From assembly GCA_018334755.1 (NCBI GenBank), contig JAGXLI010000008.1:1-49146 (forward strand): 49,146 nucleotides of DNA, written 5' to 3'. The notes under the pieces were generated by a model, which saw only the letters and a program-made list of their open reading frames with translations, did not search any database and was not told the DNA's origin. The DNA comes from Thermoplasmatota archaeon (GTDB lineage Archaea; Thermoplasmatota; Thermoplasmata; Halarchaeoplasmatales; Halarchaeoplasmataceae). The translations under genes were made by a program, and so were the position numbers. Every line of letters begins with the position of its first letter. Within the stretch, counting starts at the first letter, position 1. Below are positions 344 to 20,104 of the stretch, piece by piece.

Positions 344-796
344 ATGCATAAGTACGTCGCGCTGATCGACGGCAACTACTGGGACACGATGAACGGTCTG
401 TGGGCCGTGATAAAAAAAGATATGTTCACTCCGGATATGATATATCTTCTAGCTGAAGAGAACGACGAAGAGATGGTGAACGCTCTTACAGAAGATTGTA
501 AAAGTCTCTTAGACCAGTACGGTATAGAGTCAGAGATCCAAAGTCAGATCTTAGATAACGGCTTAGAAGAAGTCGAAAAGTTAATACAGGAGGATTCTAA
601 AGCGGCTTTGGATATCAGCGGGGGAACGAAACATCTGACTGCTAGAGTGCTCGCTAACATCTCAACCTCCAGTTTTGATCACATATTCTGCCTCTCTATC
701 GACAAGAATATAGATCCAAAAAGACCACTTCCCACGATCGATATGAAGAAAACAGTTTTAGAAGATCTCAAAGGCAAGCCAAAGGGGGATAGATGA
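344..796 (+). CDS. Stand-alone CARF-like (CRISPR-associated Rossmann fold) domain protein
   Basis: 150-aa ORF with a beta1-like start (KYVALIDGNYWDTMNGLWAVI), 'TPDMIYLLAEEN', and 'ALDISGGTKHLTARVL', which resembles the GTK ligand-binding motif of CARF proteins; stop overlaps the next start (ATGA). Confidence 0.65.
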   Translation: MHKYVALIDGNYWDTMNGLWAVIKKDMFTPDMIYLLAEENDEEMVNALTEDCKSLLDQYGIESEIQSQILDNGLEEVEKLIQEDSKAALDISGGTKHLTARVLANISTSSFDHIFCLSIDKNIDPKRPLPTIDMKKTVLEDLKGKPKGDR

Positions 797-1881
797 TGGA
801 AGAAGTTCTGAATAAGCGAAACCTGGTAATGCTTTTGAATGAGATTGAAAACCAGGATATCGATGAGTTCGAAATTAGAGAACCGTACTTCAATAACCGC
901 TTGTTAAAGGTAAAAATCAAAGATGAAGAATACGAGATCGAATTGTCCAGTAAAAAGAATCTAGAGGTACCAGTTTCAAAGGAGGAATACTGGGATGAAA
1001 AGGAGATACCAGGCTTCAACGAGTATAAGGAATGCCTGATCTCATCAGGTTTAGTCGATTTCCAGAACTGGAATGATTTTAAAGACTGGATACACTACTT
1101 TTACAAGAGTGAAAAAGAACCCGGACTTTCTAGCGAGTCCGTCTTCTTGACGATAGACACCAATATCGCTTATTACCGCCTCATATCAAGAAGATTTCCA
1201 TTGAGGTATGACGGCACAAAGATCAGAAGTGAGGATTTCGACTATCTCCTTAGTTCTATAGTGGAGGGGGAGATAGACCATCACATCCGCGATAAGTACC
1301 ACAAGTCGGACCTGAAGATGATGGGACTTCACTCGAAGATAGGCGATATCCGATACAAATTCAGGAATAGAGGAACATTAGAGACCAGAAAAGCAAAATT
1401 TGCTACAGAGGAATTGAACCACCTGAGAGGCGAGCTGAACGCGGCAAGGATCAAAGGCAACGCTTCTAAAACCGACTCCGAAAAGAACGATATAAGGATC
1501 GTCGAATCTCTAGAAAAATTCGGATGGGACAAGAACATCGACGTAGCTCTCATCTCTACCGACAGGAACATGGCCAATCATGCAGAAAATTCTGAGGTCC
1601 CGTTCTTCATCCTGGAGATGCCTCACAAGCTGCAGAGGAAAAATGTGGTCGGTGATGAAACGCTGTTGAACCTACTCCACGACCTGGCTTTGATGTTCGG
1701 AGCTGTACAGATACCGGAGCTGAGCACTACCTTGTTCGGTATCTGGGGCGGCAAAAAAGACTCTCATTATAGTCACGAGTGTGTCAAATTATGGATCAAC
1801 CCGGGGTCTTCTCTAGAGAGTCCCCTAAAACGTGATGTCAAGGTAATAAATTCCTTATCTAAAGCTAAATCTCTCGACTGA
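793..1881 (+). CDS. PIN-like domain ribonuclease with N-terminal extension, coupled to the CARF-like protein
   Basis: 362 aa; PIN-like acidic motifs 'VFLTIDTNIAYYRL', 'IVEGEID', 'SEKNDIRIVESL', 'VALISTDRNMANHAE'; 4-nt start/stop overlap with the upstream ORF. Confidence 0.65.
   Translation: MMEEVLNKRNLVMLLNEIENQDIDEFEIREPYFNNRLLKVKIKDEEYEIELSSKKNLEVPVSKEEYWDEKEIPGFNEYKECLISSGLVDFQNWNDFKDWIHYFYKSEKEPGLSSESVFLTIDTNIAYYRLISRRFPLRYDGTKIRSEDFDYLLSSIVEGEIDHHIRDKYHKSDLKMMGLHSKIGDIRYKFRNRGTLETRKAKFATEELNHLRGELNAARIKGNASKTDSEKNDIRIVESLEKFGWDKNIDVALISTDRNMANHAENSEVPFFILEMPHKLQRKNVVGDETLLNLLHDLALMFGAVQIPELSTTLFGIWGGKKDSHYSHECVKLWINPGSSLESPLKRDVKVINSLSKAKSLD

Positions 1882-15975: not shown

Positions 15976-20104
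<4,129 letters not shown>

Follow-up and report, generated by a model that had tools for sequence, protein, structure and literature searches.

An operon of two genes at the start of the window, which is the complete 49,146-base contig C82 and whose readable sequence therefore begins at base 1, encodes a CARF protein followed by a PIN-domain protein. With a probability of roughly 0.55, these genes encode the CARF_m1 CARF-PIN effector as two separate subunits, which form a ligand-gated PIN RNase that operates outside CRISPR. The split-effector reading is supported by the matches of the two proteins to consecutive parts of one profile, a conserved operon that is always split, invariant acidic residues and the match to SiRe_0806; a role outside CRISPR is suggested by the scarcity of type III genes among carriers (4 of 49), by the failure to find Cas10 or RAMP in the contig's own genome, and by defence-type neighbours on plasmids. 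That the two proteins form a complex, that a ligand gates it, that it cleaves RNA and that it serves defence or stress outside CRISPR are inferences.

The features of the locus are collected in Table 1. The preliminary description had given the two plus-strand ORFs, their lengths and their ATGA overlap exactly, and the overlap is predicted from the sequence to couple their translation. The motif quoted there for the first protein, DISGGTKHLTARVL, is found at residues 90-103; in the second protein, IDTN (121-124), IVEGE (156-160) and STDRN (255-259) were likewise located, whereas the motif written as 'END.RI' actually reads E230-K-N-D233-I-R-I. The N-terminal domain of the second protein is a candidate for CARF docking and signal relay. 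The neighbouring gene, cysS, is on the opposite strand, and its stop codon directly abuts that of the second ORF (1882). The source assembly comprises 2.1 Mb in 112 contigs and is 93% complete.

Table 1. Coordinates of the CARF/PIN gene pair and its parts within the window.
Feature	Position	Strand	Evidence
Predicted CARF sensor subunit (CARF_m1 family), 150 aa	344..796	+	PADLOC, AF2 model, structure match
Motif-II-like DISGGTK	residues 90-96 of ORF 344-796		
ATGA stop/start overlap	793..796	+	sequence; same 4-nt overlap in 18/50 pairs
PIN-domain nuclease subunit (predicted), 362 aa, conserved ~118-aa N-terminal domain	793..1881	+	PADLOC, Pfam
N-terminal domain of PIN protein, residues 1-118	793..1146	+	conservation
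PIN region with acidic residues D122, E160, D233 and D257 of the second ORF	1153..1572	+	conservation

The CARF assignment of the first protein proposed in the preliminary description is supported by its sequence and by a predicted CARF Rossmann-like fold, with PADLOC profiles, a PDB profile search and a confident structure model all in agreement. In particular, residues 1-144, the whole domain, match the PADLOC profile CARF_m1--CARF (E = 5.5e-15), which is matched by 41/41 aligned members of the CARF family; the protein also matches the N-terminal part of CARF_m1--CARF_PIN (7e-11) and other CARF profiles. A PDB search with a profile of 41 CARF relatives retrieved Sso2081 (2.1e-7), the 9JXW chain (3e-6) and Card1 (1.6e-5). 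Moreover, the AlphaFold (AF2) model has a pLDDT of 84.5 and most closely resembles known CARF structures, with SiRe_0806 at the top (Z 17.1, rmsd 2.1, 135 residues). Motif II here is G94-T95-K96; K96 is present in 43/47 homologues and position 95 is R or T in 39/47, as expected for the binding of an anionic ligand. The position of the motif-I serine is occupied by N11 in the window copy, and by serine in only 21/47 homologues. A search of the contig's own genome for a second CARF of the same family found none.

The second protein carries a PIN domain according to its sequence, which upholds the earlier PIN-like assignment. It matches positions 189-453 of the CARF_m1--CARF_PIN profile (PADLOC, E = 8.7e-24) and Pfam PIN_4 (PF13638) at 23.8 bits, above the cut-off of 21.9; across the family, the former profile is matched by 41/41 members and PIN_4, at E<=1e-3, by 19/41. 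The acidic residues are nearly invariant: D122, E160 and D233 occur in 47/47 homologues and D257 in 45/47, and all four are kept in 11/11 haloarchaeal homologues. Two residues beyond the PIN domain are also conserved: N16 without exception, and P73 in 46/47 homologues and each of the 11 haloarchaeal copies. For this protein, the AlphaFold model computed from a 6-sequence alignment reached a pLDDT of 40.3, too poor for a fold search, so that the PIN assignment relies on profiles and conserved residues. Matches of the PIN profile to influenza haemagglutinin (E about 0.1 over about 40 residues) were rejected as chance. The named relatives of the protein come from Thermoplasmata MAGs, including Candidatus Saliniplasma halalkaliphilum.

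Because the two ORFs match consecutive parts of the fused CARF_m1 CARF-PIN profile, they represent the same architecture split into two genes. The survey of conserved adjacency, a check set beforehand in the preliminary description, shows that this split pair is kept together. Across the 52 PIN loci of the phylum (extra copies included) that a search of 200 related genomes yielded and that were read with their flanks, a same-family CARF gene lies directly upstream on the same strand in 49, and the other three PIN genes are at contig ends. Of 50 pairs, 18 share a stop-start overlap of exactly 4 nt, and in nearly all others the stop and start are within about 40 nt. On haloarchaeal plasmids, all 11 loci have the CARF gene directly upstream, in diverged pairs with 20-25% identity in the PIN protein. 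Pairing at this frequency far exceeds what chance would give. When the fused profile was searched across the phylum, it retrieved no fused CARF-PIN gene, and every locus examined was split. Two candidate fusions (L099 and L100) are each interrupted by a stop codon that separates CARF from PIN, and an apparent exception to the pairing (L063) lies at a contig end, where the last CARF-like codons (EEVWK*) adjoin unrelated sequence in a possibly chimeric contig. The distribution of the PIN protein is patchy, with 49 carriers among the 200 related genomes, including the contig's own; a search of viral contigs and phage records found no relatives.

The two proteins have changed at different rates. 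Within the genus (L048-L051), identity to the window copy is 37-41% for CARF, 69-73% for PIN and 75-78% for CysS. The CARF and PIN distance matrices are correlated (r = 0.67; the highest value among 1000 permutations was 0.16), as expected of partners inherited together, a correlation for which shared species history alone would suffice. The fast change of CARF fits an arms race or relaxed constraint.

The pair is only weakly linked to type III CRISPR. The 200 related genomes include 6 with the Cas10 palm domain, 7 with RAMPs and 61 with Cas1. Type III genes were found in 4/49 carriers versus 3/151 non-carriers, slightly more commonly in carriers (Fisher p = 0.06), and Cas1 in 13/49 versus 48/151 (p = 0.59). 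In the 4 carriers, the type III genes are on other contigs or far from the pair, and no type III core genes lie beside it in the relatives' loci examined. Both Cas10 and RAMP are absent from 45/49 carriers, a count taken with one profile per gene from genomes that are mostly incomplete MAGs or drafts. The pair is present without Cas10 or RAMP in a single-contig, 99% complete genome (G068), and three further single-contig carriers (G029, G039 and G162) lack Cas10, RAMP and also Cas1. Profile searches of the contig's own genome, a 93% complete draft, found no Cas10, RAMP, Cas1, minimal CRISPR polymerase (mCpol) or SMODS, and no Cas10 was found on the 11 haloarchaeal plasmids. The preliminary description had allowed either a CRISPR ancillary module or a stand-alone system; since most carriers have neither Cas10 nor RAMPs and the plasmids have no Cas10, the stand-alone option is favoured. 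Two other signal sources were considered and rejected: mCpol occurs in only two genomes, both with Cas10 and without the pair, and the SMODS matches in relatives are weak, mostly below the cut-off and located in ORFs of ~445 aa that read as putative CCA-adding enzymes.

The genomic surroundings differ between the lineages. In Thermoplasmata, the neighbours are mostly housekeeping genes that are conserved within clades, and not defence islands; the genes on the cysS side are conserved in the genus of the window, and in a sister group the neighbours include pgk and a ~695-aa gene, apparently for DNA polymerase B. This clade-conserved synteny suggests vertical inheritance there. The haloarchaeal plasmid surroundings include BREX PglX and BrxE (L134), DrmE (L141; DISARM-like), csa3 (L135), and HNH and UvrD/PD-(D/E)XK genes. 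In a crude comparison, where many profiles match the same helicases, 116 PADLOC profiles (1e-8) matched among 51 plasmid neighbours, compared with 13 for 56 control genes taken from these plasmids; the UvrD helicases with a match to GajB could instead be repair proteins. The plasmid neighbours support a defence context, without proving it.

The order of domains is that of SiRe_0806 from Sulfolobus islandicus (PDB 9JXW; 9JXX with cA4), in which CARF is likewise followed by PIN. The CARF model aligns with 135 residues of its CARF domain at Z 17.1, and there is a weak match (E 0.08) of the PIN profile to chain positions 250-357. SiRe_0806 is a single chain, however, whereas here CARF and PIN are separate genes. 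A literature search on SiRe_0806, 9JXW and CARF-PIN proteins found nothing relevant. Both ORFs match the PADLOC CARF_m1--CARF and CARF_m1--CARF_PIN families significantly; PADLOC has one profile for CARF alone and another for CARF fused to PIN, whereas the obligate two-gene operon with its weak CRISPR link comes from the present analysis. The CARF_m1 and CARF-PIN families are already described, under names that reportedly follow Makarova et al. 2020, and parts of the present findings may have been noted in that classification. The type III CRISPR effectors Csm6/Csx1, Card1 and Can2 also couple a CARF sensor to a nuclease, and the CARF model matches them at Z 10-12.5; they are single-chain and driven by Cas10, whereas most carriers of the pair are without Cas10. 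RtcR offers a CARF sensor that operates outside CRISPR, binding 5' tRNA halves that end in 2',3'-cyclic phosphate (PMC7790460), but it controls transcription and has no nuclease.

Several other explanations were weighed. The pair could be an ordinary type III CRISPR ancillary effector working in trans, activated by cA4 from a Cas10 that is elsewhere or was missed. The structure of the fused relative SiRe_0806 with cA4, the type III genes elsewhere in 4 carriers and the 93% completeness of the source assembly give this explanation some weight; it is unlikely, however, given the 45 carriers without Cas10 and RAMP, the nearly complete single-contig genome without both, the three others also without Cas1, and 11 plasmids with no Cas10 on any of them. 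Somewhat less probable is a toxin-antitoxin system, in which the PIN protein would be a constitutive toxin and the CARF protein an antitoxin released by degradation or ligand binding. PIN is a common toxin domain, and the layout of a small upstream gene overlapping a downstream nuclease gene would be consistent with such a system, as would the faster evolution of the small partner (37-41% versus 69-73% identity within the genus). The CARF protein, however, retains nucleotide-site motif residues that would be superfluous in a pure antitoxin, the same two parts are fused into one chain in the PADLOC profile and in SiRe_0806, and the cysS synteny within the genus suggests vertical inheritance.

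A third explanation, improbable to a slightly greater degree, is a housekeeping regulator of RNA damage or stress, in which the CARF protein would sense RNA ends or tRNA fragments and the PIN protein would trim or degrade RNA. The patchy presence (49/200 genomes), the defence-type plasmid context in haloarchaea and the fast evolution of CARF all speak against it, while the precedent of the RtcR CARF (PMC7790460) and the stable position of the Thermoplasmata pair between housekeeping genes such as cysS and pgk speak for it. Finally, a ring nuclease role for the CARF protein, with destruction of the signal in place of sensing, is very improbable. Sso2081 is indeed the best PDB sequence match of the CARF profile, and several haloarchaeal partners carry the PGAP name 'CRISPR-associated ring nuclease'. 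In Sso2081, motif I is Gly9-Thr10-Ser11, and Arg105 and Lys106 of the motif II GRK contact cA4 (PMC10018336); the Gly-Thr-Ser and Gly-Arg-Lys motifs of such a ring nuclease (Crn1) are absent here (N11; G94-T95-K96), and the CARF protein is paired with a nuclease that lacks any other sensor domain. That K96 is mostly kept, with the motif-I serine in only 21/47 homologues, points to a sensor rather than a ring nuclease.

According to the two-subunit effector reading, the 150-aa CARF protein would act as the sensor, dimerizing around a small anionic nucleotide as other CARFs do. Once docked on the N-terminal domain of its partner, the dimer would trigger the PIN domain to cleave RNA in a metal-dependent manner, which would lead to growth arrest or to a block of viral expression. 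Most likely, the signal is a cyclic oligoadenylate-like or RNA-derived nucleotide produced by an enzyme other than Cas10; the search of the own genome with Cas10, mCpol and SMODS profiles found no ligand-producing enzyme, which counts against ligand gating. The broader proposal, an immune or stress module that is widespread in archaea, stands alone and has its PIN RNase gated by a separate CARF in response to a non-Cas10 nucleotide signal, is plausible at a little under even odds, and the housekeeping neighbours in Thermoplasmata count against a defence role. CARF sensors are familiar chiefly as receivers of Cas10 signals. If the proposal is true, a conserved split CARF/PIN pair in many genomes without Cas10 would imply another archaeal signal source, or CARFs that read other molecules; further, as the sensor and the nuclease are separate proteins, their gating is directly testable by mixing. 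The pair may be a free-standing stress or antiviral switch of salt-loving and related archaea.

Searches of the 49,146-base window for CRISPR-like repeats, tRNAs and Rfam matches found none; short, pyrimidine-rich, imperfect direct repeats at 17166-17265 are probably of low complexity. One relative (G003) has, besides the orthologue, two further, strongly diverged CARF-PIN pairs (L083:66-1608 and L084:8979-10521) with about 24% PIN identity. Another of the phylum's lineages has a second CARF-family ORF of 219 aa ahead of the pair (L105:784-1998, minus strand). On the haloarchaeal plasmids (L133, L134, L139-L142), genes annotated as VWA-domain, HEAT-repeat and ADP-ribosylglycohydrolase proteins recur next to the pair, with some metallophosphoesterases, and possibly form a linked set. 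Moreover, two tandem CARF3/Csa3-like genes lie just upstream of the pair at L066:8201-9473 (also in L059, L069, L072 and L089); at least the first combines CARF with a winged helix, and the resulting clusters of three CARF genes are found in genomes without type III genes.
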